NCBI GenBank assembly: GCA_013388755.1
Contig: JACAEQ010000057.1
Location: 1 to 64,000, forward strand
Reading direction: 5' to 3'
From: Chloroflexota bacterium
GTDB lineage: Bacteria; Chloroflexota; Chloroflexia; Chloroflexales; Roseiflexaceae
Length of the DNA: 64,000 bases
Positions 7,524 through 29,327 of the stretch are shown here, piece by piece (the first letter of the stretch is position 1; the number at the start of each line of letters is the position of its first letter). The translations under genes were made by a program, and so were the position numbers. A model generated the notes under the pieces. The model searched no databases. It was not told the DNA's origin and worked only from the letters and a program-made list of their open reading frames with translations.

Positions 7524-9152
7524 ATGCGTTATCGTGCGAAGCCCCCGGCTCAGATGTTGCTGATCTCCAGGCGCGTCCCGGTAGCGCTGGTGCTCGCCAT
7601 CCTGCTGCTCGTCGCCTGTACCGCGCCGCCACCCGTGGCGCTGCCGTCGCCACCTGACGAACGACCCGTTGTACGCGACTCCGAGGTACGTATGAACCAG
7701 CTCATTCCGAAGCCTGCCGCCGTGACACCGCGTGCCGGTGTCTTTACCTTTCAGCCGGTCACAACCATTCATGTCGAGCCGCATGGCGAAGAGATGTTGT
7801 GGCTCGGGCAGTACCTGGCGGAGCGACTTGGCCCGGCTACCGGCTACCAGTTCGTGGTTCAGCCCGGAGGTGCCATGTCAGCGGGCAATGTCTGGTTGAC
7901 GACGTCCGGCGCGGATCCGGCTCTGGGGGAGGAGGGATACGAACTGATCGTCACGCCGGATGGCGTCATGCTCAGGGCCCACCGGCCAGCAGGCGTCTTC
8001 CGCGGTATTCAGACGCTACGCCAGTTGCTACCGCCAGCAATTGAGTTGCAACAGGCTCAGCCAGGCGCGTGGGAACTGCCCGCCGTCGAGATCCGCGATG
8101 TCCCGCGTTTTGCCTGGCGTGGCGCGATGCTTGACGTTGCGCGACATTTCTTCGGCGTCGCGGACGTCAAACGTTTCATTGATCTGCTGGCGCTCTACAA
8201 AATGAATGTGCTCCACCTGCATCTGAGCGACGATCAGGGCTGGCGGATTGAGATCCAATCCTGGCCGAACCTGGCGTTGTATGGCGGCAGTACCCAGGTG
8301 GGCGGTGGGGCGGGTGGCTACTACACCCAGGCCGAGTATGCAGACATTGTTGCTTATGCGGCCCGACGCTACATCATCGTGGTGCCGGAGATTGACATGC
8401 CCGGCCATACCAACGCCGCACTGGCCTCGTATGCCGAATTGAACTGCGACGGCGTCGCACGGACCCTCTACTCCGGCGTTGAGGTTGGCTTCAGCGCGCT
8501 GTGTGTCGAAAGCGACACGGTGTATCAATTCGTGGACGACGTTGTGCGCGAACTGGCGGCGCTGACACCCGGCCCGTACATGCATATTGGCGGCGATGAA
8601 GTGCAGACGCTCGATGCTGCCGCGTATGCCGGCTTTATCGAACGCGCCCAGGCGATCGTCCAGGCGCATGGCAAGCGCATGATTGGCTGGGAGGAGGTTG
8701 CGCATGCGACGCTGTCGCCTACATCGGTCGTCCAATCCTGGAGAAGCACCGTCGCTGCAGAAGCGGTCCGGCAGGGTGCGAAGGTGATTATGTCCCCGGC
8801 ATCGCGAACGTACCTCGATATGAAGTATGACCCCAACACGCCGCTCGGCCTGTCATGGGCTGGCCTGGTCGAGGTGCAGGATGCCTATGCGTGGGACCCG
8901 GCGACACTGCTTGAGGGTGTGGGTGAGCAGGATATCCTTGGTGTGGAAGCGCCGCTGTGGACGGAGACGATTGCGACGCGCGAACAGATGGATTCCATGG
9001 TCTTCCCCCGCCTGCTGGGTATTGCCGAGATCGGCTGGTCGCCGGCACATGGCCGCAGCTGGGAGGAATATCGGTTACGACTTGCTGCGCATGGGCCGCG
9101 GCTGGCCGCGCTGGGGGTCGCGTTCTATCGCTCGCCGCAGGTGCCGTGGTAA
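7524..9152 (+). CDS. Beta-N-acetylhexosaminidase, GH20, lipoprotein
   Basis: This 542-aa exo-hydrolase removes terminal GlcNAc/GalNAc from chitin oligomers, glycans or peptidoglycan fragments. The signal peptide ends LLVAC, with the lipid Cys at residue 32. A GH20b N-terminal domain covers about 55-185, and the catalytic TIM barrel begins at RDVPRFAWRGAMLDVARHFF. The catalytic Asp-Glu pair is in HIGGDEV (D358, E359). The barrel also shows DQGWRIEI and VPEIDMPGH. Length is normal. A second ATG at 7554 would still give a usable signal peptide. It has its own probable promoter and is followed by repeats, so it is probably monocistronic. The likely role is cell-surface glycan scavenging or wall recycling. 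Confidence 0.9.
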   Translation: MRYRAKPPAQMLLISRRVPVALVLAILLLVACTAPPPVALPSPPDERPVVRDSEVRMNQLIPKPAAVTPRAGVFTFQPVTTIHVEPHGEEMLWLGQYLAERLGPATGYQFVVQPGGAMSAGNVWLTTSGADPALGEEGYELIVTPDGVMLRAHRPAGVFRGIQTLRQLLPPAIELQQAQPGAWELPAVEIRDVPRFAWRGAMLDVARHFFGVADVKRFIDLLALYKMNVLHLHLSDDQGWRIEIQSWPNLALYGGSTQVGGGAGGYYTQAEYADIVAYAARRYIIVVPEIDMPGHTNAALASYAELNCDGVARTLYSGVEVGFSALCVESDTVYQFVDDVVRELAALTPGPYMHIGGDEVQTLDAAAYAGFIERAQAIVQAHGKRMIGWEEVAHATLSPTSVVQSWRSTVAAEAVRQGAKVIMSPASRTYLDMKYDPNTPLGLSWAGLVEVQDAYAWDPATLLEGVGEQDILGVEAPLWTETIATREQMDSMVFPRLLGIAEIGWSPAHGRSWEEYRLRLAAHGPRLAALGVAFYRSPQVPW

Positions 9153-9188
9153 CAGGTGTGGCGTACGACCAGGGAGTAGTTGCTTGTG

Positions 9189-9252
9189 CAGGATCACGGT
9201 ACCCTGAGGAGTCGTGCAGCGGTGGAGCGAAGGGTACATGCCGTCACTCCTG
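9189..9252. repeat. R2 interspersed repeat, copy A
   Basis: This copy contains CAGGATCACGGTACCCTG, a GTGCAGCGG core and ATGCCGTCACTCCTG. Related copies lie at 32562 and 41456. All three sit just downstream of a gene end, and none encodes anything. Confidence 0.55.
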
Positions 9253-9275
9253 ATCGGTGCGATACAGCTAAACTC

Positions 9276-9412
9276 AATACCTTTCAAATAAGGCGTTACG
9301 CATCGCACGGCCCCCCACCCCGGCCTTCCCCCGCTGGGAGGAGGAGTCGGACGCCCTCCCCCGGTGCGGGAGGGCGGGGGTGGGGGTGACGGGCGTAGTT
9401 GAAACGTATCGC
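9276..9412. repeat. R3 interspersed palindromic repeat
   Basis: The left end is AATACCTTTCAAATAAGG and the right end GGGCGTAGTTGAAACGTATC, an imperfect terminal inverted repeat. The interior is a G/C-run hairpin around GGAGGAGTCGGACGCCCTCC. It fills the gap after the hexosaminidase. Confidence 0.75.
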
Positions 9413-9525
9413 TGCCCGGCAAAAGCAATATTCGCAAGGTAAAGGCACCTTAACGTCAGGTTGTCCACTGAAGTATGTAGAGTCCGGCGGGATATGTTAG
9501 GTTGAACCCACACAGATTGCACGTG

Positions 9526-9650: not shown

Positions 9651-11477
9651 ATGGCACTTGGCGGTTATGCAAACCGGATCGCGCACGTCGATCTAACTGC
9701 GGGCACGATCGACTATCAGCCGATCCCCGAAGACTGGGCGCGCAAGTACGTTGGTGCGCGCGGCCTGGGAGTACGGTACATGCTCGAGAATGGGCCGCAG
9801 GTCGATCCGCTCTCGCCTGACAACCTGCTCTGCTTTATGAATGGCCCCCTTACCGGTACCGACGCGAACATGAGCGGGCGCATGGCAATCGTGACCAAGT
9901 CGCCGCTGACGGGCACGATTACCGATAGCCATCACGGCGGCTGGTCGGCGGCGAGGCTCCGCTGGGCCGGTTTTGATGGGTTGCTGTTCAAAGGCAAGGC
10001 GAGCAAGCCGGTCTATGCCTATGTGCAGGATGGGACGGTGGAGCTCCGTGATGCCTCCGAGGTGTGGGGTAAGGGCGTCCACGACACGATCCGCTTTTTC
10101 AAGGAGCGTTATGGTGAGAAGGATCTCACCGTCATCGCCATCGGGCCCGGCGGTGAGAACCTGGTGCGCTTTGCCTGCTGGGTCAACGAGAATGATCGCG
10201 CCAGTGGCCGTGGGGGCACCGGCTGCGTAGGTGGGAGCAAGAACCTGAAGGCCATCGTGGTCAAAGCGCCCAAGCGCATTCCGAAGGCCGAGAATACTGC
10301 GGCCTGGAAGGCGGCCCACAAGCGGGCGCTGGCAACGATCATGGATGAGCAGAATATCACCAGCCCGCGCAAGGGTGGCCTGTCGGTCTACGGTACCAAC
10401 GTGTTGATGAATATCACCAATACGATGGGTGCCCTGCCGAGCAAGAACAGCCAGGTCACCTCGTTTGGCCCTGCGGGTGAGAAGATCAGCGGTGAGTATG
10501 TCAAGGAGCATATCCTGGTCGAAGATCCCACGTGCCACGCCTGTCCGGTGGCGTGCAAGAAGGAGGTCGAGATCAAGGAAGGCCCGTGGAAGGGCCTGCG
10601 CATGGAGAGCGTCGAGTATGAGCCGGCATGGTCGCTCGGCGCCAACTGCGGTAACGACGATATCAATACTGTCGCCAAACTGATCGATCTCTGTAACGAT
10701 TACGGTCTGGATGCCATTGAGACCGGCCACCCGCTCTCGGTGTACATGGAGGCCACTGAGAAGGGTTATACCAATGGCGCGGGCGGTCTGCCGTGGGGCG
10801 ATATTTTCGCGATGGTGGAAACGGTGCGCAAAATCGCCTTCCGCGAGGGAATCGGCGAGGTGCTGGCGAATGGTGCCGATGCCACGGCGAAGCACTTCGG
10901 CCATCCTGAACTGGCGATGACCGTGAAAGGTCAGGGTATTCCGGCCTACGATCCGCGCGGCCTGAAAGGGATGGGTATTGCCTACGCGACGAGCAACCGC
11001 GGTGCCTGCCACCTGCGCGCGTATACCCCCGCCGCTGAGCTTGGCGTGATGCCCTTCGGTTCGCTCAAAGTTGACCCGCTGGCATGGAAGGGCAAGGGTG
11101 AACTGGTGAAGGTCTTCCAGGATGTTCACGCCTTCTCCGATAGCCTTGACCTCTGCAAGTTCAGCGCGTTCGCCGAGGGTGCCGATGAGTACGCCGCCCA
11201 GTATGCCGCCATCGTCGGCGTGGAGTGCACCGCTGAGGATGTGCTCAAGATCGGTGAGCGTATCTATAATCTCGAGCGCTACTACAACAATCTGGCCGGC
11301 TTCCGCGAGGGTAGCGATTACCTGCCCGAGCGCTTCACGAAAGAGGCCTCGACCATGCCCGGCTCGCTGGGGCATGTCTGCGAGCTGGATCTGATGCTCG
11401 AGGAGTATTACGCCGCCCGCGGCTGGGTCAATGGCGTTGTGCCGGAGGCCAAGCTGAAGGAACTCGAAATCATCTGA
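9651..11477 (+). CDS. aor: Aldehyde ferredoxin oxidoreductase (tungsten bis-pterin enzyme)
   Basis: The 608-aa cytoplasmic enzyme oxidises aldehydes to acids with ferredoxin, or runs in reverse, using W-bis-tungstopterin and one 4Fe-4S cluster. The N-terminal AOR domain starts GGYANRIAHVDLTAGTI. The cluster ligands are CHACPVAC (C295, C298, C302) with the distant Cys in LDLCKFS (C502). Pterin-contact regions include RASGRGGTG and NRGACHLRAYTP. Length is normal for the family. A strong AAGGAGG lies 6 nt before the ATG. Downstream genes supply a maturase and Moco/Wco factors, supporting tungsten over molybdenum. The exact aldehyde substrate cannot be read from sequence. Confidence 0.93.
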   Translation: MALGGYANRIAHVDLTAGTIDYQPIPEDWARKYVGARGLGVRYMLENGPQVDPLSPDNLLCFMNGPLTGTDANMSGRMAIVTKSPLTGTITDSHHGGWSAARLRWAGFDGLLFKGKASKPVYAYVQDGTVELRDASEVWGKGVHDTIRFFKERYGEKDLTVIAIGPGGENLVRFACWVNENDRASGRGGTGCVGGSKNLKAIVVKAPKRIPKAENTAAWKAAHKRALATIMDEQNITSPRKGGLSVYGTNVLMNITNTMGALPSKNSQVTSFGPAGEKISGEYVKEHILVEDPTCHACPVACKKEVEIKEGPWKGLRMESVEYEPAWSLGANCGNDDINTVAKLIDLCNDYGLDAIETGHPLSVYMEATEKGYTNGAGGLPWGDIFAMVETVRKIAFREGIGEVLANGADATAKHFGHPELAMTVKGQGIPAYDPRGLKGMGIAYATSNRGACHLRAYTPAAELGVMPFGSLKVDPLAWKGKGELVKVFQDVHAFSDSLDLCKFSAFAEGADEYAAQYAAIVGVECTAEDVLKIGERIYNLERYYNNLAGFREGSDYLPERFTKEASTMPGSLGHVCELDLMLEEYYAARGWVNGVVPEAKLKELEII

Positions 11478-11495
11478 ACGGATTGGAGCGCAACA

Positions 11496-11537: not shown

Positions 11538-11795
11538 ATGGCTGTTGTGACCCGCGATATCCGCGGCATTCCTCTGTGGTTGCTGCGTGACTACCTGGTC
11601 GATCTGGACGGTACGCTCGCGGCCGATAACCTGGTCGTCGGGCCTGGCTGGCGCGTTCAGCTGACCAGGCTGGCGGATGTTCAGATCGGTTCGCTGCGCG
11701 TTGGCGAAGTGCGCCTTGAGATGAGCGGCGCACCCGAGGTGATCGCCGCGCTCGAACGTGCATTGTGGCCGAAACTCTTGCGCGGGGGTGGCTAA
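11538..11795 (+). CDS. Stand-alone DUF1952-like protein with C-terminal GGG
   Basis: This 85-aa protein reads IRGIPLWLLRDYL, then VQIGSLRVGEVRLEMSG, and ends KLLRGGG. The pattern (P-x-W-L-L-x-x-Y-L, x-GSL, R-x-E-x-x-G, RGGG end) agrees, from memory, with the C-terminal DUF1952 domain that follows MoaD in the Thermus 'MoaD-related' protein. Here it is a separate gene, and MoaD is encoded 1.5 kb away. The ATG at 11538 is preferred; a TTG lies at 11532. Its stop overlaps an ATG (TAATG) of the radical SAM gene, so the two are coupled. Function is unknown; a role in tungstopterin sulfur transfer or assembly is inference. Confidence 0.6.
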   Translation: MAVVTRDIRGIPLWLLRDYLVDLDGTLAADNLVVGPGWRVQLTRLADVQIGSLRVGEVRLEMSGAPEVIAALERALWPKLLRGGG

Positions 11796-11821
11796 TGCGA
11801 TGGGCCAGGCAGGGGAATACC

Positions 11822-13075
11822 ATGAGCACCACATCGAGCAGCTGGGTGGAAGTGGACGATGAAGGCCGGCTGGTGATCCCGCCGGAACTGGTGTCGCGCC
11901 TCGGGTTGCACCCCGGCGCACAGGTGCGCCTGGAGGCCGGTGTCAATGATGTGCGCCTGCACCGGCCCGTGACCCATCTGAACAAGGTGTACATCGAGCC
12001 GACGAACCGCTGCAATCTTGCCTGCCGTACCTGCATGCGCAATAGCTGGGACGTGCGCATGGGCCAGATGAGCGAGGCGATCTTCGGTCGCATTCTCGAC
12101 GGACTGCGCGCCGTGACGCCGACGCCGTCCGTCTTCTTCAGTGGCATCGGTGAACCGCTGGCACATCCGCGCACCATTGATATGGTCGCCCGGGTCAGGG
12201 AGCTTGGCGCGATGACCGAGTTGATCACTAATGGCACCCTGCTCGACGAACGGCGTGCTCGTGGCTTGATCGAGGCCGGCCTCGATGTGCTGTGGGTCTC
12301 GATCGATGGCGCAACCCCTGAGAGTTATGCCGATGTGCGCCTCGGCGCGGCGTTGCCGGAGGTTCTGGAGAACATGGCGCGCTTCCGGCGGTTGCGCCCG
12401 GCCGGGCACCACGCCAGGCCCGAAATGGGTATCAACTTCGTGGCAATGAAGCGCAATATCGCCGACCTGCCTGAGGTGATCGCGATCGGGCGTCGCCTTG
12501 GCGTCACGCGCTTCATGGTCAGCAATGTGCTCCCCTACACGCGCGAATTGTGCGATGAAGTGCTCTACGACCGGACATTACGCGACATTACGTACCTGCC
12601 GTCGGCATGGCTGCCGCGGCTGAGTTTCCCCAAGATGGATCTGAATGACGACACCCGGCCGTCCTTCCTGCGCGCATTGCGTAGTGGCGCCAGCGTCACG
12701 TTTGCCGGCAATAACCTCGGCGGAGCCAATGATGTCTGTACCTTTATCGAGAATGGGTCAATGACGGTCGGCTGGGATGGCAACGTCAGCCCCTGTCCGC
12801 CGCTGCTCTATACCCATGTGAGCTATCTCCACCGTCGCCGGCGAGTCTCACACCGTCATATCATCGGCAACCTGGCCGAGCGCGATCTGCTCGATCTGTG
12901 GAACGATCCCGACTATGTCGCCTACCGCAGCCGAGTGCAGCATTTCGCCTTCGCGCCCTGTACCGCCTGCGGCGGCTGCGACCTGTCGGAGTCGAACGAG
13001 GCCGACTGTCTCGGTAACGAATTTCCGGTCTGTGGTGGCTGTCTCTGGGCGCAGGCCGTCATCCAGTGCCCGTAG
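11822..13075 (+). CDS. Tungsten-enzyme radical SAM/SPASM maturase with N-terminal AbrB-like domain
   Basis: The protein is 417 aa from ATG 11822 (AGGGG 8 nt upstream); an in-frame ATG at 11795 overlaps the previous stop. Residues 8-42 form an AbrB/SpoVT-like strand-helix element (DDEGRLVIPPELVSRLGL). The radical SAM core follows with CNLACRTC (C64, C68, C71) and FFSGIGEPLAHP. The C-terminal SPASM-like Cys-rich region shows CTACGGCDLS and CGGCLW, probably binding extra 4Fe-4S clusters. It matches the family named tungsten cofactor oxidoreductase radical SAM maturase, which co-occurs with AOR genes. It presumably modifies the cofactor or the AOR polypeptide; the reaction is not established. Confidence 0.85.
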   Translation: MSTTSSSWVEVDDEGRLVIPPELVSRLGLHPGAQVRLEAGVNDVRLHRPVTHLNKVYIEPTNRCNLACRTCMRNSWDVRMGQMSEAIFGRILDGLRAVTPTPSVFFSGIGEPLAHPRTIDMVARVRELGAMTELITNGTLLDERRARGLIEAGLDVLWVSIDGATPESYADVRLGAALPEVLENMARFRRLRPAGHHARPEMGINFVAMKRNIADLPEVIAIGRRLGVTRFMVSNVLPYTRELCDEVLYDRTLRDITYLPSAWLPRLSFPKMDLNDDTRPSFLRALRSGASVTFAGNNLGGANDVCTFIENGSMTVGWDGNVSPCPPLLYTHVSYLHRRRRVSHRHIIGNLAERDLLDLWNDPDYVAYRSRVQHFAFAPCTACGGCDLSESNEADCLGNEFPVCGGCLWAQAVIQCP

Positions 13076-13346: not shown

Positions 13347-13625
13347 TCATCCACCGGCTACTGCCGGGAAGACATCGATCGTGTCGGAAGCCGTAATGAC
13401 CGATTGCATCCCATCAGCAAGGAACGGGGCATCGCGCCCGTTCACAAACACATGCACGTGGCGGTAGAGTTCTCCGTCAGCGTCGAGCAGTTGCTGTCGC
13501 AGCGGTGGCCAGCGCTCAACCAGAGCATCCACCAGTTCGCGCACGGTCACGCCGGGAGGGAGATCGAGTTCCACCGTGCGACCACCAACAATCGGGCGCA
13601 GCGTAGCGTAGAAATTGATCTTCAT
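13347..13625 (-). CDS. moaD: MoaD/ThiS-type ubiquitin-like sulfur carrier
   Basis: This 92-aa beta-grasp protein reads MKINFYATLRPIVGGRTVEL and ends DVFPAVAGG. The terminal Gly-Gly is the site adenylated by MoeB and thiocarboxylated to supply the dithiolene sulfurs of molybdopterin or tungstopterin. Length and fold pattern (VTVRELVDALVERWP, YRHVHVFVNGRDAPF) are normal. It is transcribed divergently from moeA across a 73-bp gap that holds a palindrome and a -10. No moaE is next to it, so MPT synthase partners must be elsewhere. Confidence 0.85.
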   Translation of the reverse strand: MKINFYATLRPIVGGRTVELDLPPGVTVRELVDALVERWPPLRQQLLDADGELYRHVHVFVNGRDAPFLADGMQSVITASDTIDVFPAVAGG

Positions 13626-13698: not shown

Positions 13699-14931
13699 AT
13701 GCCCGAGTTGTTTCAGGTCGTGACGACGGCTGAAGCCAATGCCCGGCTGGCAGGTCACATGTCGACGCCAGGGCGTGTCGAGATGGTACCGATCGATGCG
13801 GCTCTGGATCGGGTGCTGGCCGAGGATCTGTATTCACCCTGCAACCTGCCTGCCTTCCCGCGCTCAACCATGGACGGATTCGCGGTACGTGCCGCTGATA
13901 CGCACGGCGCCAGCGAAGGATTGCCCGCGTACCTCACCCTGTGCGGCGAAACCCCGATGGGTCGCCCGCCGGACCTGACTGTCGGGCCGGGCCAGGCGAT
14001 TCGCATTCATACCGGCGGAATGCTTCCAGCCGGCAGCGATGCGGTTGTGATGGTTGAGCATACGCAGGCGCTCGATGCCACGATGCTCGAAGTCGTGCGC
14101 CCGGTTGCCGCCGGTGAAAACGTTATTCCAGTGGGCGAAGACGTGCGTGCCGGTGACTTGCTGTTTGCGCGCGGCCACCGGCTGCGCCCGCAAGATCTGG
14201 GTGGTCTGGCGGGCGTTGGCGTGATCGCTGTGCCAGTGATGGCGCGCCCGCGTGTCGCCATCCTCGCCTCGGGAGATGAGGTCGTGCCCGCCGATGCAAC
14301 ACCTGGCCCGGCACAGGTGCGCGATATCAACAGCCACACGATCGCCGCCCTGGTGCGGCGGCATGGCGGTGAACCGTCCATGTGCGGCATCGCGCGCGAC
14401 GATGCGGCAGAACTTGAGCGCATGGCCCGTGCTGCGCTCGAGCGTGCAGATGCGCTGATCATTTCTGCGGGAAGCTCGGTGAGCACCCGTGATATGACCG
14501 CCACGGTGATCGCGTCGCTCGGTGCGCCCGGCATCCTGGTCCACGGTGTGGCGATTCACCCCGGGAAGCCAACTATCCTGGCTGTGGCCGATGGTCGCCC
14601 GGTGTTCGGCTTGCCCGGTAACCCCGTCTCGACGATGATCGCCTTCGAGTTGTTCGTCGTCCCGGCACTGCGCCGCCTCCTGGGCGTCGTTTCGGGCGAC
14701 GTGTTCGTCGTTCAGGCGCGCCTGTCGCGTAATATCGCCTCGCGCCCGGGCCGCGAGGACTATGTGCCGATACGGCTGGAGCAGCGCGAGGATGGGTTGT
14801 GGGCCGATCCGGTGTTTGGCAAATCGAACCTGATCTATACGATGGCTCACGCCGACGGGCTGGTGCAGGTGCCCCTCGATCTCGCCGGCCTCTACGCAGG
14901 TGAACTCGTTACGGTATGGCGATTCGTGTGA
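13699..14931 (+). CDS. moeA: Molybdopterin molybdenumtransferase MoeA
   Basis: The 410-aa cytoplasmic enzyme inserts molybdate or tungstate into adenylylated pterin. MoeA N-terminal domains show RSTMDGFAVRAADT and GEDVRAGDLL. The MoCF (MogA-like) domain from about residue 175 has DINSHTIAALVRRHGGE, SAGSSVSTRD and PGKPTILAV, then GLPGNPVSTMI. Domain IV completes it. Length is normal. AAGGAG lies 6 nt before the ATG. A second, larger MoeA-type gene follows, and such pairs are common where both Mo and W enzymes are made. Confidence 0.92.
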   Translation: MPELFQVVTTAEANARLAGHMSTPGRVEMVPIDAALDRVLAEDLYSPCNLPAFPRSTMDGFAVRAADTHGASEGLPAYLTLCGETPMGRPPDLTVGPGQAIRIHTGGMLPAGSDAVVMVEHTQALDATMLEVVRPVAAGENVIPVGEDVRAGDLLFARGHRLRPQDLGGLAGVGVIAVPVMARPRVAILASGDEVVPADATPGPAQVRDINSHTIAALVRRHGGEPSMCGIARDDAAELERMARAALERADALIISAGSSVSTRDMTATVIASLGAPGILVHGVAIHPGKPTILAVADGRPVFGLPGNPVSTMIAFELFVVPALRRLLGVVSGDVFVVQARLSRNIASRPGREDYVPIRLEQREDGLWADPVFGKSNLIYTMAHADGLVQVPLDLAGLYAGELVTVWRFV

Positions 14932-15005
14932 CATGCTGGCGCAGCAAGGACGCCACGTCACCCGGTTATCTGGCAACCGCTCACATGGGGGGTGCAACGC
15001 CACCT

Positions 15006-15032
15006 GCAGCGAGGGTGTCCCGCCCTCGTTGC
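15006..15032 (+). terminator. Hairpin between the two moeA-type genes
   Basis: GCAGCGAGGG ... CCCTCGTTGC forms a 10-bp stem with one G-U pair and a 7-nt loop, in the 208-bp gap. There is no T-run. It may be a partial terminator or a short repeat. Confidence 0.35.
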
Positions 15033-15139
15033 GGGATATGAGGGCAAACGGGCCTCGCTCCCAGGAGACGTGTGACCACTGACGCTGGTTCCATGGGTGC
15101 CGGTTGAAGGAACACCGGTGTTTACAGGGGAACAACCGC

Positions 15140-17080
15140 ATGCCGCGCAACTATTACCTTGAAGATCGTGCCCTCGACGACGCGATCAGCCGCTTCGAGG
15201 CGGCGCTTGCCAGCGCCGGAGGGTTAGCCATGCCGGGCGTTGAGACGGTGCCGCTCACCGAGGCGCGCGGCCGCGTGATTGCCGCGCCAGTCTGGGCGGC
15301 TCGTTCTGTGCCGCACTATCATGCTGCAGCCATGGATGGCATTGCCGTGCGCGCCGCCGAGACCGCCGGAGCAACCGAGTCGACGCCGCGCCGCCTGGCC
15401 CTGGGTCACCAGGCTGTGTGGGTCGATACCGGTGATGCCATGCCCGCCGATATGGATGCGGTTGTGATGGCCGAGCATGTGCAAACAATCGATGAGGCAA
15501 CGGTCGAGATCGATGCTGCGGTGGCACCGTGGCAACACGTCCGCCCGCTGGGCGAGGATATTGTCGCAACCGAACTGGTCGTTGCCGAAGGAGAGCGCCT
15601 GCGACCGGTCGATCTCGGAGCGATTGCCGCGGCCGGCCACGCACGTGTGCAGGTGTATCGCCTGCCGCGCGTGGCAATCATTCCTACCGGCACCGAACTG
15701 GTCACCGTCGAGGAAGCGCGAGCACGACAGGAGCGCGGTGAGCCGGTGCGCGCTGGAGAGATCGTCGAGTTCAACTCGCTCATCCTCGCCGGCCTGGTTG
15801 AAGAATGGGGCGGCCAGGCGCTGCGTCTGCCGCCGGCGCCCGACCGGCGCGACATGCTGCGATCGGCGATCGAGACGGCTCTTGGACAGGCCGACATTGT
15901 GGTCGTCAATGCCGGATCATCTGCAGGTTCCGAGGATTACACCGCAGCAGTGCTGGGCGAACTGGGCACGGTTGTGGTCCACGGTGTGGCGATTCGTCCC
16001 GGTCACCCGGTCATTCTGGGAGTAGCAGCGGGTAAGCCGGTGCTGGGCCTGCCTGGCTACCCTGTCTCGGCGGCACTGACCGCTGATCTGTTCCTGCGCC
16101 CGCTCGTCTACCGGCTTCAGGGGCAGCAACCCCCGGCACGCCCCAGGGTGCAGGCGCTGATCAGTCGCAAACTCCTTTCCCCGCTGGGAGAAGACGAATT
16201 CGTGCGGGTGACCCTGGGGCGCGTGGATGGGCGCCTGATTGCGACGCCCCTCAGTCGGGGCGCGGGTGTCGTCACGTCTCTCGTGCGCGCCGACGGTATC
16301 GCCCGCATTCCGCGCTTCTCCGAAGGTGTGCATGCCGGGGAGGAGGTAACGGTCGAGTTGTTGCGCGATCAGGATGCGATCGAGCGCACCCTGGTGGCCA
16401 TCGGCAGTCACGACCTGGCACTCGACCTGCTGGGCGGCCACCTGCGCCGCCATGCACCCGGCATGCGCCTGAGTTCGGCAAATGTTGGTAGCCTGCGTGG
16501 CCTGCTGGCGCTCAAGCGCCACGACGCGCATCTGGCCGGCATTCACCTGCTCGACGAAGAAACTGGTGAGTACAATCGCCCGTTCGTCCAGCGTCTGCTG
16601 CCTGATGAAGCGATCGTGCTCGTGCACCTGGCCTTCCGTGAGCAGGGGTTTCTTGTCGCGCCGGGTAACCCGCTGGCTCTCACTGGCCTGCACGATCTGG
16701 TGCGGCCCGGCGTACGCCTCGTCAACCGGCAACGCGGCTCCGGCACGCGCGTGCTGCTCGATTATCACCTGCAGCTACTGGGCGTCGATCCGCTCCAGAT
16801 TGCCGGCTATGAACGCGAAGAGTTCACCCACATGGCAGTGGCGGCGGCCGTGCTCAGCGGCGCAGCCCATGTCGGGCTCGGTATACGTGCCGCCGCGCGC
16901 GCCCTCGGGCTGGATTTCGTGCCGCTCTTCAGTGAACGCTATGATCTGGCCGTTCCCAGGCGGCACTGGGAGAGTGACCTGCTCGCGCCGGTGCGCCGCA
17001 CCCTGGCCGATCCCACATATCGGGCCGCCGTCGAGGCTCTCGGCGGCTACGATACCCACCAGATGGGCACGGAACTGTAG
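15140..17080 (+). CDS. moeA: MoeA fused to a periplasmic-binding-protein-like domain
   Basis: The protein is 646 aa from ATG 15140 (AGGGGAA upstream). Residues 1-420 are a full MoeA (AAAMDGIAVRAAE, GEDIVATELVVAEGE, AGSSAGSEDYTAAV, GLPGYPVSAALTADLF). Residues 430-646 are a PBP-like domain of the ModA/COG1910 kind (LRLSSANVGSLRGLLALKRH, RQRGSGTRVLLDYHL, VGLGIRAAARAL). Such fusions are known in archaea and some bacteria. The PBP-like part probably binds oxoanion or cofactor, though in cytoplasm rather than periplasm because no signal peptide is present. With moeA it may give separate Mo and W selectivity; that is inference. Confidence 0.9.
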   Translation: MPRNYYLEDRALDDAISRFEAALASAGGLAMPGVETVPLTEARGRVIAAPVWAARSVPHYHAAAMDGIAVRAAETAGATESTPRRLALGHQAVWVDTGDAMPADMDAVVMAEHVQTIDEATVEIDAAVAPWQHVRPLGEDIVATELVVAEGERLRPVDLGAIAAAGHARVQVYRLPRVAIIPTGTELVTVEEARARQERGEPVRAGEIVEFNSLILAGLVEEWGGQALRLPPAPDRRDMLRSAIETALGQADIVVVNAGSSAGSEDYTAAVLGELGTVVVHGVAIRPGHPVILGVAAGKPVLGLPGYPVSAALTADLFLRPLVYRLQGQQPPARPRVQALISRKLLSPLGEDEFVRVTLGRVDGRLIATPLSRGAGVVTSLVRADGIARIPRFSEGVHAGEEVTVELLRDQDAIERTLVAIGSHDLALDLLGGHLRRHAPGMRLSSANVGSLRGLLALKRHDAHLAGIHLLDEETGEYNRPFVQRLLPDEAIVLVHLAFREQGFLVAPGNPLALTGLHDLVRPGVRLVNRQRGSGTRVLLDYHLQLLGVDPLQIAGYEREEFTHMAVAAAVLSGAAHVGLGIRAAARALGLDFVPLFSERYDLAVPRRHWESDLLAPVRRTLADPTYRAAVEALGGYDTHQMGTEL

Positions 17081-21546: not shown

Positions 21547-22422
21547 TCAGCGCCCCGGCGGGAAGACTGCCACCTCATCGCCGGCGTGGATGACCGCGGC
21601 GCATCCGCCGGCGTAGGCCAGTTCACGCCCATTCAGCAACACGCGCCAGCCATAGCGCGGCACATACGCTGGCGTCACCTCAATCCAGAGCCTGTCACTC
21701 GACTCATCCGCCTCCCAGACGCGCTCGAGCGCCTCGGCGCGCAGCTGGGGATAGCCGCTAAACAGCTTACGCAGCACCTCGCCGGCGCTGCCGCCATCGG
21801 CAATCCGCACCTGAATCTCCGGCGTTCCGGCGAGCGCGCGCAGGCGGCCATACAGCGCACAGCGTACCGCAACATCGCCGGCGTCCAGTTCGCGGGCAAC
21901 CTGGTAGCCGAACAGTAACTGATGTTGTTGCACCGCCAGGTATTTGCTCCATGCTGCCATCGCCGCAGCGATCGTGCTGGCCGGCAGTCCGGCTTCCTGC
22001 ATAAAGCGCGAAAAACTCGCCAGCACCAGGCCAAACGACCCGATGACATACTCGGATGGTGTGTGGATGTGACGCGGACCATGGCCGGCGTGTGCTCCTC
22101 CGGCGCGGAACAGGTAGAGCGCAAACTCATCGCTGGTATCCAGCCCGAGGGTACGGGCGAGCCAGATGGTGAAGAAGCGCCGCCGTTCCTCAAGGTGCGC
22201 GTCGTCCACCCCCTGTTCCCAGCCCAGGATCGCCGCCGTTTCCGGAACATGCTGCAGGTAATTGTAGGTCTCTACCACCAGCTCCGTCCCCCGGCGGAAC
22301 AACGGTTCCACCGAGCGCGATGCTGCGGCCCGCTCCTCGTGCCCCCAGCCAACGAAACGCAACATGCGCCGCCAGACCTCATGCGGCTCAGGTGCCAGAT
22401 TGTGCAGTTCCAGCGTTGTCAT
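21547..22422 (-). CDS. Protoglobin-like sensor globin fused to a MoaD-like ubiquitin fold
   Basis: The protein is 291 aa from ATG 22422, with GAGGT 6 nt upstream; longer starts to 22524 overlap the dehydrogenase and lack a site. Residues 14-175 look like a globin-coupled-sensor/protoglobin domain: LVVETYNYLQHVPETAAILG, a WLARTLGL stretch, then FRAGGAHAGHG (H111 as likely proximal haem ligand, H114 alternative) and TPSEYVIGSFGLVLASF. Residues 184-291 resemble MoaD (ALYGRLRALAG at the start, YGWRVLLNGRELAY, AGDEVAVFPPGR at the end). The expected terminal Gly-Gly is replaced by PPGR, so ordinary thiocarboxylation looks unlikely. It is the last gene of the hydrogenase cluster, 17 bp after the dehydrogenase. 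An O2/redox sensing role is inference. Confidence 0.7.
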   Translation of the reverse strand: MTTLELHNLAPEPHEVWRRMLRFVGWGHEERAAASRSVEPLFRRGTELVVETYNYLQHVPETAAILGWEQGVDDAHLEERRRFFTIWLARTLGLDTSDEFALYLFRAGGAHAGHGPRHIHTPSEYVIGSFGLVLASFSRFMQEAGLPASTIAAAMAAWSKYLAVQQHQLLFGYQVARELDAGDVAVRCALYGRLRALAGTPEIQVRIADGGSAGEVLRKLFSGYPQLRAEALERVWEADESSDRLWIEVTPAYVPRYGWRVLLNGRELAYAGGCAAVIHAGDEVAVFPPGR

Positions 22423-22438
22423 CGAATACCTCGATGGC

Positions 22439-23608
22439 TCACTCATCGTATGCGCGGGCATACAGCTCGATGATCTCTTGCTTTGATGGTTTGCGTGGAT
22501 TGTTGGCCGGGCTACCGCTGTCAATCGCCGCGTCGGCCATTACCGGCGCCAGGTCCATCAACCGCGCGCGATCCACGCCCAGTTGCTGCAGCGACGGGAT
22601 CCGGATATCGCGTACCAGCCGCCGGATGGCGGTCACCGAACGGTCAGCCGCCTCCATCAGCGACAGGCCATCAACCGGCTCGCCCATTGCCGCCGCAACG
22701 TCGGCATAACGCTGCGGATCGCCGACCAGACTGAACTCCGTCACCACTGCGAGCAATGCCGCATTGGAGACACCGTGAGCGATGTGAAAGTAGGCGCCGA
22801 TCGGGCGCGACATGCCGTGCACCAGCGCGACCGACGAATTGCTGAAGGCGATGCCCGCCTGCATGGCGCCCAGCATCATCTTCTCGCGCGCCTCAATGTT
22901 GTTGCCGTTGGACCATGCCTGGCGAATATTCTGTGAGATCAACTCGATCGCCGAGAGGCAGAAGATATCGGTCATGGGCTGGCGTTTGACCGACACATAC
23001 GCCTCGATCGCGTGCACCAGCGCATCCACGCCAGTCGCCGCCGTGACGCCCTGCGGCGATGAGACGGTCAACAGCGGGTCAACGATCGCGATGGTCGGCA
23101 TCAGGTAGGGGCTGCCGATCAACATCTTCACGTCGGTCTTCTGGTCAGTAATGACCGTATAGACCGTCGCCTCGCTACCGGTGCCGGCAGTGGTAGGAAT
23201 CGCCACCAGCGGCACGCCCGGCTGCGCGATCTTGCCGATCCCCTTGTACTCCTCGATGGAGCCCGGGTTTGTCGCCAGCACGGCAACCGCCTTGGCGGTA
23301 TCGATCGGGCTGCCACCGCCGACGGCGACAACGAAGTCGCATCCCGCATCTCTGTAAATCTGTAGACCTTCCTGGACATATTCCACGACCGGCTCAGTGT
23401 TCACGCCGGCGAATACCGCGCTGCCGATGCCACTGTCGGCCAGGAGTTGCCTGACCTGATCAACCAGGCCAAGGCTCTGCATAATCTTGTCCGAGACGAT
23501 CAGGGCATGCTTCCAGCCCCGTTTCTGGCATTGCGCTCCAACCTGCTCGACGGCTCCCGAGCCAAGCACCACATGTGCAGGCATGATGAACTCTCGTGGC
23601 GGCATCAT
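22439..23608 (-). CDS. Iron-containing alcohol dehydrogenase
   Basis: This 389-aa group III NAD(P)-dependent dehydrogenase starts at ATG 23608, 7 nt after a perfect AAGGAGGT. Upstream frame to 23833 is not coding. The Rossmann-like domain shows GGGSPIDTAKAVAVL and IPTTAGTGSE. The metal-binding helical domain has HAIEAYVS and LVHGMSRPIGAYFHIAHG. The reaction is reversible alcohol/aldehyde interconversion; substrate not deducible. It lies between the hydrogenase protease and the globin-MoaD gene. A possible promoter (23702-23730) means it could be transcribed apart from hox. Confidence 0.92.
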   Translation of the reverse strand: MMPPREFIMPAHVVLGSGAVEQVGAQCQKRGWKHALIVSDKIMQSLGLVDQVRQLLADSGIGSAVFAGVNTEPVVEYVQEGLQIYRDAGCDFVVAVGGGSPIDTAKAVAVLATNPGSIEEYKGIGKIAQPGVPLVAIPTTAGTGSEATVYTVITDQKTDVKMLIGSPYLMPTIAIVDPLLTVSSPQGVTAATGVDALVHAIEAYVSVKRQPMTDIFCLSAIELISQNIRQAWSNGNNIEAREKMMLGAMQAGIAFSNSSVALVHGMSRPIGAYFHIAHGVSNAALLAVVTEFSLVGDPQRYADVAAAMGEPVDGLSLMEAADRSVTAIRRLVRDIRIPSLQQLGVDRARLMDLAPVMADAAIDSGSPANNPRKPSKQEIIELYARAYDE

Positions 23609-23701: not shown

Positions 23702-23730
23702 AGTGTAATATACGTTACGCAGGGCGTCAA
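23702..23730 (-). promoter_or_regulatory. Possible internal promoter for dehydrogenase and globin-MoaD genes
   Basis: On the minus strand, TTGACG (23730-23725), 17 nt, then TACACT (23707-23702). It partly overlaps the end of the protease gene. Transcription would begin near 23695, giving a leader of about 87 nt. Confidence 0.35.
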
Positions 23731-24278
23731 AACGAAGCTGAGGTGGACGTGTTGCTGGCAGTGGCCAGCAACTGCCGGGCCATCTCGACCGCCCTGGCGA
23801 TACCAGTGCGCGCGCGGGCCGAGAATGGCGCACCAGGGGTAAATTGCTCCGCCGGTATCGTGATCAGCCAGGATCGTGGCGCACGCCCGTAGACCTCTTG
23901 TGTGAGCAGCAGCAGGCGTTCGGGGGTGGCGAAATGGCCGGGTGGACCGCCAGTAGCGGCAGGGCTCAGGTGTGCCAATGACACGGCTGCATCACTGCTG
24001 GCGGAGGCATCGAGGAACACAACCATACCGGCATCCGCCAGTAATGGCGCAAGCTCTGGTGTCAACTGGTGTACCGACAGAACGGACACGCCTGTCAGGT
24101 GACATTCTGCCAGCGCATCGGCCGCTGCCCGTCCCGCGCCGTCGTCGCCACGCAGATCATTGCCATAACCGATAACGAGCCGGTGAGACGGTTCGCAACG
24201 GGTATAGGGGGGGGCGTCCGGTGCGTGGAATGGCGCTGCGGCACGAGTGGCGCACTCCGTGGTGTCTGATTGCATCAT
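23727..24278 (-). CDS. hoxW: Hydrogenase maturation protease
   Basis: This 183-aa (from ATG 24278) HyaD/HoxW-type endopeptidase trims the C-terminus of the NiFe large subunit after Ni insertion. The family start GYGNDLRGDDGAG is visible, preceded by an unusual N-terminal tail of about 33 residues. Further along are SVHQLTPELAPLLADAG and VFLDAS, which hold the expected acidic Ni-contact residues. It starts 6 bp after the hoxH stop, so is coupled to its substrate. The tail after residue 160 is Ala/Ser/Thr-rich. Confidence 0.85.
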   Translation of the reverse strand: MMQSDTTECATRAAAPFHAPDAPPYTRCEPSHRLVIGYGNDLRGDDGAGRAAADALAECHLTGVSVLSVHQLTPELAPLLADAGMVVFLDASASSDAAVSLAHLSPAATGGPPGHFATPERLLLLTQEVYGRAPRSWLITIPAEQFTPGAPFSARARTGIARAVEMARQLLATASNTSTSASF

Positions 24279-24283
24279 TTGTC

Positions 24284-25705
24284 TCACCGTTGCACCGTAT
24301 CGAGCACCGTGCCATCGGCGGCGACCAGGATCAATGCCAGTGGCATCGTCCCGGCAGCGTGGGTCGAGCAACTCAGACAGGGATCATAGGCGCGGATGCC
24401 GGCTTCGACCCGGTTGAGTGCGCCTTCGCTGATCCGGTCGCCGTGGACGTAGCGCTGCGCGATCTGGGCCACGGTGCGGTTCATGGCCAGGTTGTTGTGC
24501 CCGGTGGCGATGATCAAGTTGACTCTGCGTATGAGGCCATTGGGGTCAACGGCATAGTCGTGGAACAATGTGCCGCGAGGCGCCTCGCTCACGCCAACGC
24601 CTTCGAGCTGGTTGACACCCGCCTCGGCGCGCAGTCTGCCGGAATCCAGATCCGGGTCATCGAGCAGCAACGAAATCCGTTCCAGTGCCGCGAGAATCTC
24701 GACCAGCCGGGCATAGTGATAATAAAAAGACGACGTTGCAATACCGCCGGCGCGCTGGCGCATCTCACCAAGTTCGGCGTCGGCCAGGAGCGTGCCGATA
24801 CGGGTACAGATATTCAGCCGCGCCAGTGGCCCGACGCGATACATACCGGCAGGGTAGCCACGCGGGCGGTAATATGGCATCTTCAGATACGACCACGGTT
24901 CAACGGCTTCGGCAATCATCTCGCGATAGTGTGCCGGATCAACCTGGTCAGCGATGATCGCGCCGCCGGAGTCGACCAGCCGCAGGCGCCCGCCGTAGTG
25001 TTCCCATTCGCCGTTCGGCCCGACCAGGCCAAGGAACAGTGAGGGGAAGTCGCCAAAGGATGCCACTTCATCGGCGTGGGTATCGAGCAATGTTTTGAAG
25101 CGCCGCAGCGCGTCGAGCACGGTTGTGCGCGCTTCCGGTAGGCGTGCGGCAATCGCGGCGCGCTGCGCGGCGGCTGGCGCGGCACGCACACCGCCAGGGA
25201 CGGCCCATGCCGGGTGGATCTTACTGCCACCGAGTGTCTCAATAATCTCCTGGCCAAACTGGCGTAATCGGATGCCCGCGCGCGCCAGGTGGGCATCGGC
25301 GGCCATCAGACCAAACACGTTGCGCGTGGCGGGATCGCTATCGAAACCCAGCAGCAAATCAGGCGCGCTGAGGTGGAAGAAACTCAATGCATGCGACTGA
25401 ACAATCTGGCCCAGGTTCATCAGGCGGCGCAGTTTCTCCGCTGCCGGCGGGATCATCACCGACAGGATGGCATCGCCCGCTTTGGCCGAGGCCAGCAGAT
25501 GGCTGACCGGGCAGATACCGCAGATCCGCGCGGTGATTCCTGGCATTTCCCACAATGGCCGGCCTTCACAGAAGCGCTCAAACCCACGAAACTCGGTGAC
25601 GTGAAAGCGTGCCTCCTGCACGGTACCCGCGTCATCAAGATGGATCGTGATTCTGGCGTGCCCTTCGATGCGTGTGACCGGGTCTATCAGAATGCGCCGG
25701 GTCAT
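24284..25705 (-). CDS. hoxH: NAD-reducing [NiFe] hydrogenase large subunit HoxH
   Basis: This 473-aa catalytic subunit carries the NiFe(CN)2CO site. ATG 25705 is chosen because [17 protein letters not shown] is the family start and GAGGT lies upstream; the longer frame to 25810 is not family-like. Nickel ligands are RICGIC (C62, C65) and DPCLSC (C443, C446). Protease cleavage is expected after H449 in CSTH, removing a 24-residue tail (AAGTMPL...). Group 3d or 3b-like bidirectional type. It pairs with HoxY, and the diaphorase HoxFUE links it to NAD(P). Confidence 0.93.
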
Positions 25706-25811
25706 GCTTGACCTCGCTGTCGTCGTTTGCTCTGCGGCACGCGCCTGCAACTGTGCGCCAGGCGCAATCGCCGGGTTGTGTACCGCGAATGGTGCAGGGG
25801 GTACCAGCACC

Positions 25812-26357
25812 TCAGCCGAACTTGATCATCTCGCGCCCGGCCAGCAGCACCTCACCGCCGGCAAGGATCTGTTCCAGGGCGGCACGAATGCGCGGTGCAG
25901 GCGGCGGGCAGCCTGGCAGGTAGAGATCGACCGGTACGACGGCATGGACAGGGAGCACCCTGCCAAGCAATGCTGGAACGATACCGGGCGCATCCGGGAT
26001 CTGGCCAGACATATCCGCCCGTTCGACATACAGCGTCTGCAGAATCGGGCCCGGCGCGCCAAGCGGATTGCGCAGCGCTGTCACATTGCCGGTGACCGCG
26101 CAATCGCCGAAGGCAATCAGCGTGCGGGTGCGCTCCCGCACCTGGCGAATCAGGTGCAGGTTATCCGCATTCGCCACCGCGCCCTCGACCAGTGCAACGT
26201 CGACATGCTCAGGATATGCCTTGATGTCGGCGAGCGGGCTATACACGAGTTCGACGTGCCGGGCCAGTTCGAACAGCCACTCATCAAGATCGAGGAATGA
26301 CATGTGGCAACCCGAACACCCACCAAGCCAGATCGTTGCAAGTCGTAGCTTCTTCAC
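25812..26357 (-). CDS. hoxY: [NiFe] hydrogenase small subunit HoxY
   Basis: This 181-aa small subunit bears the proximal 4Fe-4S cluster. Ligands are WLGGCSGCH (C14, C17), FGDCAVTGN and YLPGCPPP. There is no Tat signal, so the enzyme is cytoplasmic. Length fits HoxY, which lacks the medial and distal cluster domain of uptake hydrogenases. It lies between hoxU (20 bp gap) and hoxH. Confidence 0.92.
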
Positions 26358-26377
26358 GGTCGTTCCATCCAGAACTA

Positions 26378-27085
26378 TTACCAGCGCTGGTCGCGTGCCG
26401 CGACAATGAACGCAATCTTTGTGGGATCGCGCTCCATTTCACTGACGGTGGCGCCACGCCGGAAAATGGCGCCGGTCGGGCAAGCGAGCAAGCACTTGCC
26501 ACACGACGTACAGCTGGTTGACTCCCCCCATGGCTGGCGCATGTCGGTGATGACCCGCGCGTCGGCCCCACGACCGGCGATATCCCATGTATGGACCCCT
26601 TCGACCTCATCGCAGACGCGGACGCAGCGTGTGCAGAGAACACAGCGATTGTGATCGATGCCGAACCGCCCGTGTGAGATATCCACCTCACAGACTGGAA
26701 ATGCATAATCAAAGCGCACATGATCCATGCCAATCGCAATGGCCAGATTCTGTAGTTCGCAATGGCCGTTGGCGACACACACCGCGCAGATATGGTTACG
26801 CTCGGCGAAGAGCAGTTCAATAATGATGCGGCGGTAGTTGCGCAGGCGCTCCGTGTCGGTGTGAACGACCATGCCTTCGACGACCTGGGTGACACACGCA
26901 GGACGCAGGGTGCGACTGCCTTCGATCTCGACCAGGCACATGCGGCACGCACCGACACTGGTCACACCATCAAGGTGACATAATGTAGGAATGTAGATAC
27001 CGTTCTCGCGCGCTGCTTCGAGAATCGTTTCACCCTCGCGCCCGCTGACGAGCTGATCATTGATAGTAAACGTTCGCGCTGCCAT
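26378..27085 (-). CDS. hoxU: Hydrogenase diaphorase iron-sulfur subunit HoxU
   Basis: The 235-aa protein is homologous to the NuoG N-terminus. It has a 2Fe-2S ferredoxin-like domain (CHLDG, GACRMC), then the His-Cys cluster region ([13 protein letters not shown]), then two 4Fe-4S ferredoxin motifs ([11 protein letters not shown] and [15 protein letters not shown]). It carries electrons between HoxF flavin and HoxY. The whole diaphorase set is in the order E-F-U, as in cyanobacterial and Chloroflexus-type operons. Confidence 0.93.
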
Positions 27086-27144
27086 CGTCTTTCTTTCGCC
27101 GTACGAGAAACATTGAACAACGAGCGTCCCTATGCCGTATCGGG

Positions 27145-28755
27145 TCAGGGTTCCGTCGTTGCGCGATCTGCGTTATGGTTCAGCAACGCCTCATATTCTG
27201 CGCGGAAATACTTCAGGGTGCTCAGCACCGGGTTTGGTGCCGACTGGCCGAGACCGCACAGGCTCGTCTCCTTCACCATGAGGCAGAGCTGTTCCAGTTG
27301 TTCGAGATCCGCAGGCGTGGCCTGGCCGGCGCGAATGACATCGAGCATATGCAGCATCTGCGCCGTCCCTGCCCGGCACGGGATGCATTTGCCGCATGAC
27401 TCGTCCTTGCAAAACTCCATATAGAAGTGAGCCACGTCAACCATATGGGTCGCGTCATCCATTACCACCATGCCGCCCGAGCCCATAATCGAGCCGACAC
27501 GCTGCACCGACTCATAGTCGACCGGCGTATCGAGCAGCGTAGCGGGAATGCATCCACCGGACGGGCCACCCGTCTGCACCGCCTTGACATGCCCGTCTGG
27601 CACGCCGCCGCCCATCTCCTCGACGATCTGGCGCAATGTCGCACCCATGGGCACTTCGATCAGGCCGGTATGGCGAATTTTGCCGGTCAGGGCGAAGACT
27701 TTGGTACCTTTGCTGGTTTCGGTGCCGATCGAAGCGAACCACTCGGCGCCATGACGAATGATCGGCGCAATATTTGCATATGTCTCGACATTGTTAATGA
27801 GCGTCGGCTGGCCCCACAGGCCACTCTCGGCGGGGTATGGCGGGCGTGGGCGCGGCTGGCCGCGGCGACCCTCGATGGATGCCATCAGCGCCGTCTCTTC
27901 GCCGCAGACGAATGCTCCCGCGCCGACGCGAATATCAACGCGGAAGGTGAAGCCAGCGTCAAAGATCTGCGCGCCGAGCACACCCAGGCGCCGCGCCTGA
28001 GCGATTGCCTTTTGCAGGCGCTGGATTGCGAGCGGATACTCGGCTCGCACATAGACATACCCCTGGTCCGCACCGACGGCATAGGCGGCGATAGCCATGC
28101 CTTCGAGCACTTTGTGCGGGTCGCTCTCGATGATACTGCGATCCATAAAGGCGCCGGGATCGCCTTCATCAGCATTACAGACGACAAATTTGCGGTTGCC
28201 GTGGCTCTTGGCCACCGTGGCCCACTTGAGACCTGTCGGGTAACCTGCCCCACCGCGGCCACGCAGCCCGCTGCGTGTGATCACATCAATGACGTCGGCA
28301 GGGGTCATTTCGTGGAGCACATGATACAGTGCCTGGTAGCCGCCGGCAGCGATGTATGACTCGATGCGCTCCGGGTCAATGATGCCGCTATGTTCCAGTA
28401 CAATGCGCTTCTGGCCGGTAAAGAATGGGTGTTGCGGATCGCCGAGAGGCGCCGTGGCTTCGCCGCCGTCGAGCGCAGCAACGATTGATGGTGCGTCAGC
28501 GGCACGCACATGCTCGTAGAGCACACCATCCGGATCGACCATAACCAGCGGGCCGTTCCCGCACAATCCCATGCACCCGACGCCGATAACCTCGATATCC
28601 TGGCGTTCGACCTCGGTGGCTGCCTCTTCGAGCCGCTGTTTAAGCGACAGCGCGCCAGCCGACTGGCAACCCAGCGCAGTACAACATCGTATGCGGATCG
28701 ACCGACGCGATGCGCGCTCATGCTCAGCAATCTCGATCAATTCACTCAGATCCAT
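27145..28755 (-). CDS. hoxF: Hydrogenase diaphorase NAD(P)/FMN subunit HoxF
   Basis: This 536-aa NuoF-type subunit starts at ATG 28755. A thioredoxin-like 2Fe-2S domain ([19 protein letters not shown]) covers residues 1-95. The NADH/FMN domain has [17 protein letters not shown] and [13 protein letters not shown]. The SLBB-like part follows, then the 4Fe-4S motif [13 protein letters not shown] with the later Cys in ETSLCGLGQ. It oxidises or reduces NAD(P)H. The gap to hoxE is 47 bp. Confidence 0.93.
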
Positions 28756-28802
28756 AGGTTCACCTGTGCGGGTCAGCCAGCTGCCCCACGATCGCTTCGC
28801 CC

Positions 28803-29327
28803 CTATTCGACCATCTGCGCCAGTCGCTCGATCCAGATCAGCACCTGCTCGGGGGTCTGATGGCCAGTCACGGTACCGTCCACGACTACCGTCGGCGCAA
28901 TGCCGCATGCTCCCAGGCAACGTGCCGTTTCGAGCGAGATGTGTCCATCAGGCGTGGTAGTACCCGCCTTGATGCCCAGATGCCGTTCAGCAGCAGCGAG
29001 GATCGCTGCCGAGCCGCGCACATAGCACGCCGTGCCAAGGCATACGACGCATGAGTGCTGACCTTTCGGCGCCATCGAGAAGAAGTGATAGAACGTTGCG
29101 ACGCCATAGACGCGGCTCGGGGGCAGGTGCAGACTGTGGGCGATGTAGAGCAGCAGATCGGTTGAGAGGTAGCCAAACAATTCCTGGGCGCGGTGCAGCA
29201 CCTCGATCAGTGCATCAGGGCGATACTGGTGCTTCTTCATCGCCGCTTCGAGCAGTCTGAAGCGGTTATCGCCGCTGGGGTGCGGTGCACTTTCCGGCGT
29301 GGGGCGCTGGGAACGCGTGACAGCCAT
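28803..29327 (-). CDS. hoxE: Hydrogenase diaphorase subunit HoxE
   Basis: This 174-aa NuoE-type protein has one 2Fe-2S cluster bound by CLGTAC and CLGAC. ATG 29327 with GGGGAT upstream is preferred over the open frame to 29579. The helical N-terminal half ([27 protein letters not shown]) is typical. It is the first gene of the hox operon. A clear promoter could not be assigned in the 345-bp divergent region shared with the VWA gene. Confidence 0.9.

Follow-up and report, generated by a model that had tools for sequence, protein, structure and literature searches.

Globin-coupled sensors such as HemAT, AfGcHK, DosC and BpeGReg join an N-terminal S-family globin, with a proximal His and a B10 Tyr, to a C-terminal output, and the known outputs are kinase, cyclase, phosphodiesterase and chemotaxis domains. 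The protoglobins of M. acetivorans and A. pernix have the same Pfam family and fold in a single domain. Among ubiquitin-fold proteins, the SAMPs are free proteins with a Gly-Gly end, while a MoaD-type domain tied to tungsten aldehyde oxidoreductase (AOR) clusters occurs either separately (AorD) or fused to the AOR itself, as in Azoarcus (Iyer et al. 2006, PMC1779556). We analyzed a gene, GM, in a stretch of 64,000 nucleotides from a Chloroflexota bacterium (the window, in what follows), whose product has features of all of these systems. It is built like a globin-coupled sensor, although its output has the MoaD/ubiquitin fold and is not a chemotaxis, kinase or cyclic-dinucleotide domain; it differs from the protoglobins in having two domains; and its MoaD-type domain, tied to tungsten AOR clusters as in AorD and the Azoarcus fusion, is fused to a globin and ends in PPGR instead of the Gly-Gly of the SAMPs. 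A literature search, with sparse coverage of subscription journals, found no reported MoaD/ubiquitin-fold output for globin sensors and no paper joining protoglobin with MoaD or with aldehyde oxidoreductase.

GM is read from the minus strand (Table 1). The coordinates given earlier were correct but the strand was absent from them, and the plus strand carries a stop in that frame. The start codon is ATG (22422) and has a GAGG ribosome-binding site; it lies 16 bp past the point where an iron alcohol dehydrogenase gene stops. Because GM is conserved over its full length in many genomes, among them those of Thermus (36-38% identity), we rule out both a chance or frame artefact and a fusion unique to this assembly. 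In a whole-genome scan of the window genome GM was the sole protoglobin found, and there were five further MoaD/ThiS-like places, one with a score under the family cut-off.

Table 1. Coordinates of GM, its parts and its neighbors in the window.
Feature	Position	Strand	Remark
Globin-MoaD fusion gene (GM)	21547..22422	-	291 aa; stop at 21547-21549
Protoglobin/sensor-globin domain, residues 18-173	21904..22371	-	Pfam PF11563, 3.2e-13, and fold search
Tyr53 codon, B10-type distal Tyr (assigned)	22264..22266	-	invariant, 47/47
His111 codon, proximal His	22090..22092	-	invariant, 47/47
MoaD/SAMP1-like beta-grasp domain, residues 184-291	21550..21873	-	profiles, PDB sequence, predicted fold
C-terminal PPGR replacing Gly-Gly	21550..21561	-	invariant
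Iron-containing alcohol dehydrogenase	22439..23605	-	16 bp upstream of GM; start codon uncertain
hoxE-F-U-Y-H and hydrogenase maturation protease	23727..29327	-	local neighbor, not conserved beside GM elsewhere
WOR83-type tungsten AOR	9651..11477	+	recurrent GM neighbor elsewhere
DUF1952 protein, AOR island	11538..11795	+	
Radical SAM protein resembling tungsten-cofactor oxidoreductase maturase	11819..13075	+	below equivalog cut-off
Stand-alone MoaD ending FPAVAGG	13347..13625	-	sulfur-competent counterpart
MoeA and MoeA-PBP genes, AOR island	13699..17080	+	

The N-terminal half matched Pfam Protoglobin above the family cut-off. An AlphaFold2 model of the full chain was built from seven sequences, three of them from loci of a genome search and the others from the window and its related loci. 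It was of low confidence (pLDDT 55), and we used it only because its fold search agreed with the profiles: the 36 best PDB matches were all globin sensor domains and protoglobins, including crystal structures of globin-coupled sensors, and the top matches had a TM-score of about 0.7 on the target. His111 aligns with the F-helix (proximal) His of the Aeropyrum pernix protoglobin (ApPgb), and both His111 and Tyr53, which from general knowledge of the motif we take to be the B10 distal Tyr, are present in all 47 aligned members. A conserved B10 Tyr in globins suits O2 or NO chemistry. The earlier note had proposed a protoglobin or sensor-globin N-terminus with H111 as its proximal His, and both proposals were borne out; the predicted fold, whose failure to resemble a globin had been named as grounds for dropping the idea, matches globins, albeit in a model of pLDDT 55. 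GM therefore has the N-terminal sensor-globin domain (Pfam, fold search and a tree with other protoglobin proteins), the proximal His and the distal Tyr of a globin-coupled sensor. It has none of the known signaling outputs (chemotaxis, kinase, cyclase or phosphodiesterase), the only other domain found by profiles and fold search being the MoaD-like one, and it is not a single-domain protoglobin, as the second domain is present in all full-length relatives.

The second domain was identified as a beta-grasp MoaD fold by several routes. Pfam ThiS matched residues 190-289 (7e-4), just under the cut-off in a single-protein scan and above it in the whole-genome scan; the NCBIfam model moaD_arch (archaeal MoaD) gave 8.6e-7; and the NCBIfam SAMP1 model gave 6.7e-11, which falls short of the equivalog cut-off, as would be expected of a copy that is both fused and altered. 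In a PDB sequence search the top hit was the MoaD-like HVO_2177 (2m19, 1.3e-5); this protein and SAMP1, both of Haloferax, were also closest to the domain by structure and profile. When the C-terminal 112 residues were modeled by themselves, with rows from the window and its related loci only, the result (pLDDT 74, pTM 0.70) matched 2m19, SAMP1 (3po0), E. coli MoaD (1fm0) and Thermus 1v8c with probability 1.00, and also mycobacterial MoaD and Urm1. The earlier reading of residues 184-291 as MoaD-like thus stands, since this model did not turn out to have another fold, and so does the reading of the chain end as PPGR. The thiocarboxylate-forming Gly-Gly of MoaD/ThiS carriers and SAMP modifiers is absent, PPGR taking its place in 47 of 47 members, and by the defining Gly-Gly test GM is, as judged from its sequence, not a MoaD. 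The stand-alone MoaD of the same loci ends FP[PA][VI][AG]GG in 17 of 17 cases, so the absence of Gly-Gly from the fused domain is a fixed trait and does not reflect decay. Since the MoaD half is otherwise less conserved on average than the globin half (0.56 versus 0.69), the four invariant tail residues stand out. The domain scored 22-50 bits against AOR-island MoaDs and 13 bits against the MoaD of the genome's own MPT synthase, which ties it by descent to the AOR branch. The Thermus 'MoaD related protein' 1v8c (MoaD plus DUF1952) has the segment LEGRDVRYLQGL.TPL in common with Thermus GM and, unlike GM, has no globin.

A first search found full-length copies at 62-66% identity in Chloroflexota assemblies, and a seven-row profile reached one member in a second Chloroflexota class. 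Extended with that member and with Thermus rows, the profile was used to survey 396 genomes of the second class, where 59 genomes had a full-length copy and there were two partial copies. GM is also present in a second family of Chloroflexales and on 15 Thermus plasmids (about 36-38% identity), where the copies are annotated 'protoglobin domain-containing protein' or hypothetical (one in T. thermophilus is THTHE16_RS11160) and that of T. parvatiensis is frameshifted; no relatives were found in viral contigs. Among the genomes searched in the window's own family, the fusion is confined to the window's genus, and in the GM tree the window gene nests among copies from the second class, which suggests lateral transfer. 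The placement of Thermus in this tree is unsure because of its very long branch. When the globin halves of the fusions were placed in a tree alongside other protoglobin-domain proteins from the second class, they fell together on one side of a branch with support 99; a single fusion event is the simplest reading and, being well supported, is likely. A further unusual architecture in this class (L106-L122, from G601, G727, G773, G634 and others) combines a protoglobin domain and, behind it, two Rieske [2Fe-2S] domains within a single protein of roughly 440 aa; it was checked with Pfam on the L109 protein. The alignment used for conservation comprised 47 GM members (mean pairwise identity 51%, minimum 31%), and its invariant residues include Y53, W87, H111, W158, W246, W259 and the terminal PPGR. 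Taken with its recurrence in dozens of Chloroflexota and on Thermus plasmids, GM looks like a real family and an undescribed type of gas sensor.

The earlier note had drawn its suggestion of a haem-based sensor from the place of GM at the end of a hydrogenase operon. In the window the order is indeed hoxE-F-U-Y-H and maturation protease, iron alcohol dehydrogenase, GM; however, hyp/hox genes lie within a few kb of GM in only one other genome (G526), and hydrogenase is therefore ruled out as the defining context. The lead that held was the suspected link to AOR and pterin enzymes: in our survey of genomic context 22 of 46 GM loci were flanked by an AOR ortholog, a close relative of Haloferax WOR83, and others had nos, DUF2249 or NnrS-like genes. 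In 15 cases the AOR was within 340 bp, in both same-strand and convergent arrangements, and L083 and L094 each make up a complete tungsten island, in the order MoeA-MoeA-GM-MoaD-DUF1952-permease/binding protein-AOR. In the window the corresponding island lies on the far side of an ABC transporter from GM and comprises AOR, DUF1952, the radical SAM maturase-like protein, MoaD and two MoeA genes. It had been placed 5 kb away, which agrees with its nearest edge (MoeA-PBP, 4.5 kb) but not with the AOR gene itself, at 10.1 kb. Rfam found no Moco/tungsten-cofactor riboswitch in the island, either in the window or in five related loci. Because the MPT synthase of the window genome is a MoaD-MoaE fusion (...IPPVSGG then MoaE, G000:C30:38604-39188, L126), the island MoaD is probably specialized for AOR. 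DUF1952 is a recurrent partner of this MoaD (in the window and in L087 at 8903-9484); the two appear fused in L087, as in Thermus 1v8c, so DUF1952 may have a MoaE-like role.

In the second class, an AOR ortholog was present in 55 of 61 genomes with GM and in 44 of 335 without it (odds ratio 61), and NosZ in 27 of 61 and 56 of 335 (odds ratio 4), both from raw counts that ignore kinship. Linkage to AOR is recurrent without being obligatory. The AOR ortholog was missing from six of the 61 genomes with GM and from the five genomes of the second Chloroflexales family that have it, and within Chloroflexales the carriers of AOR are usually without GM, i.e. AOR does not predict GM; GM is therefore not a dedicated AOR factor. 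Several loci showed further features. In L001 (7564-13275) GM and AOR are separated by genes for an FAD oxidoreductase, a 4Fe-4S protein and a CO dehydrogenase (CODH) of the CooS type. The stand-alone island MoaDs of L001, L084, L086, L094 and L103 have residues past the Gly-Gly (GGEPI..., GGGR, GGGTGC...) and would need trimming. The neighbors of GM in L069 are a molybdopterin oxidoreductase with NADH-dehydrogenase-like subunits and a 2-oxoacid oxidoreductase; a c-di-GMP-I riboswitch (Rfam RF03167, 66 bits) was found there at 11402-11485, upstream of a large open reading frame.

The second recurrent setting is one of denitrification, with nosZ, nosD, nosY, nosL, a multi-TM protein that we labeled NnrS-like by eye (it has no Pfam match), small 4TM proteins resembling COX1, Crp regulators and a cupin. 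GM comes after an NnrS-like protein and a DUF2249 protein in the second Chloroflexales family, while the Thermus loci read nar - transporter - drpA - drpB - COX1-like 4TM - GM - multi-TM - FeS assembly factor. In one such locus (L041, 11528-14314) the last four of these genes are closely spaced on the same strand behind drpAB, so that the run extends beyond the two genes that have been studied. DrpA and DrpB, the DUF2249 proteins of this nitrate element, contain neither a globin nor a MoaD domain, although a TusA model gave a weak match to DrpB. They have been proposed as nitrate sensors, and double mutants had normal levels of nitrate reductase subunits with little activity (Chahlafi et al. 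2018, PMC6282519); that paper makes no mention of the globin gene two places downstream, and polar effects of the mutations on Thermus GM are conceivable. DUF2249 was present in eight of 20 GM genomes tested and absent from the window genome and most others tested, ruling it out as an obligate partner. The AOR and denitrification contexts intermix on the GM tree with at least eight switches, which excludes context as a clade marker. This result indicates that the same protein serves both contexts, which fits one shared gas-responsive function.

What all the contexts share is enzymes that O2 or NO damages, usually accompanied by a Mo/W-pterin cofactor within the genome. We infer from this, and from the two domains, that GM may be a haem-based sensor or adaptor for NO or O2 (possibly CO) whose sulfur-dead MoaD provides a docking surface that controls or protects the maturation of Mo/W enzymes or other gas-sensitive anaerobic enzymes, the best-supported reading, to which we give a probability of roughly 0.4. 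The S-family globin would bind haem through His111 with Tyr53 above it, and the haem would take up NO, O2 or CO. With Gly-Gly replaced by the invariant Pro-Pro-Gly-Arg, the C-terminal domain would be unable to carry sulfur and would act only as a docking surface, and the presence of a ligand would alter the surface shown to partners in the assembly of Mo/W-pterin enzymes. The most plausible partners in the window genome would be those of the AOR island (apo-AOR, DUF1952, MoeA and the radical SAM maturase), and in Thermus the target would be the nitrate reductase locus; the maturation or use of gas-sensitive enzymes would thereby be matched to O2 or NO. The reading in terms of maturation does not cover every context, since NosZ, hydrogenase and CODH are not Mo/W enzymes. 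The more specific mechanism, in which gas binding exposes or hides the dead MoaD surface and its PPGR tail so that they engage the maturation proteins of apo-AOR (or nitrate reductase) instead of the -GG MoaD, is doubtful.

The main rival is that GM is a tethered gas scavenger, in which the globin destroys or sequesters NO or O2 (in the manner of a dioxygenase or denitrosylase) and the dead MoaD holds it beside AOR, nitrate reductase or other clients. The O2- or NO-sensitive enzymes of every recurrent context (AOR, CODH in L001, hydrogenase, and those of the nos/nar loci) would be suitable clients, and the B10 Tyr would suit the chemistry; however, neither a reductase domain nor a dedicated reductase gene recurs with GM, and its fold and residues are those of the sensor class, so we consider scavenging unlikely. 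GM could instead be a dedicated NO/nitrate-response regulator of denitrification, secondarily recruited to a place beside AOR, with its MoaD contacting TusA-like DUF2249 (Drp) proteins and not Mo/W maturation proteins. The gene orders in Thermus and in the second Chloroflexales family, together with the co-occurrence with NosZ, point in this direction, but the patchy distribution of DUF2249 and the far stronger association with AOR make it decidedly unlikely. The fixed loss of the transfer tail from a MoaD fold would also be expected of a competitive decoy of molybdopterin synthase, which would occupy MoaE or MoeB without sulfur and lower cofactor synthesis when gas is bound. In the window genome, however, a decoy should lose out to the MoaD that is fused to MoaE itself, and the MoaD half of GM resembles the island MoaD rather than that of the synthase, so a simple decoy of MoaE is improbable. 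Finally, trimming of Arg from the invariant Gly-Arg end could leave one Gly at the C-terminus, as happens in Atg8, and make GM a ubiquitin-like modifier that attaches the globin to targets, but this is very improbable, as Gly-Gly is required in the SAMP/MoaD family and no gene for an E1, a JAB peptidase or a trimming peptidase was recurrent in the clustered GM neighborhoods.

If the more specific mechanism, in which gas exposes or hides the MoaD surface, is correct, GM would be a direct, non-transcriptional O2/NO switch of tungsten and molybdenum enzyme assembly. It would also be the first globin sensor with a ubiquitin-fold output, and an output derived from a sulfur carrier would be a new way of action for haem sensors. 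In Thermus the gene sits behind drpAB, whose role in nitrate sensing is only partly explained, and a tractable laboratory strain makes it accessible to knockout. With its wide distribution, apparent single origin and an invariant tail other than Gly-Gly, the family provides a testable handle on how O2-labile tungsten and molybdenum enzymes stay functional in microaerobic or denitrifying bacteria.
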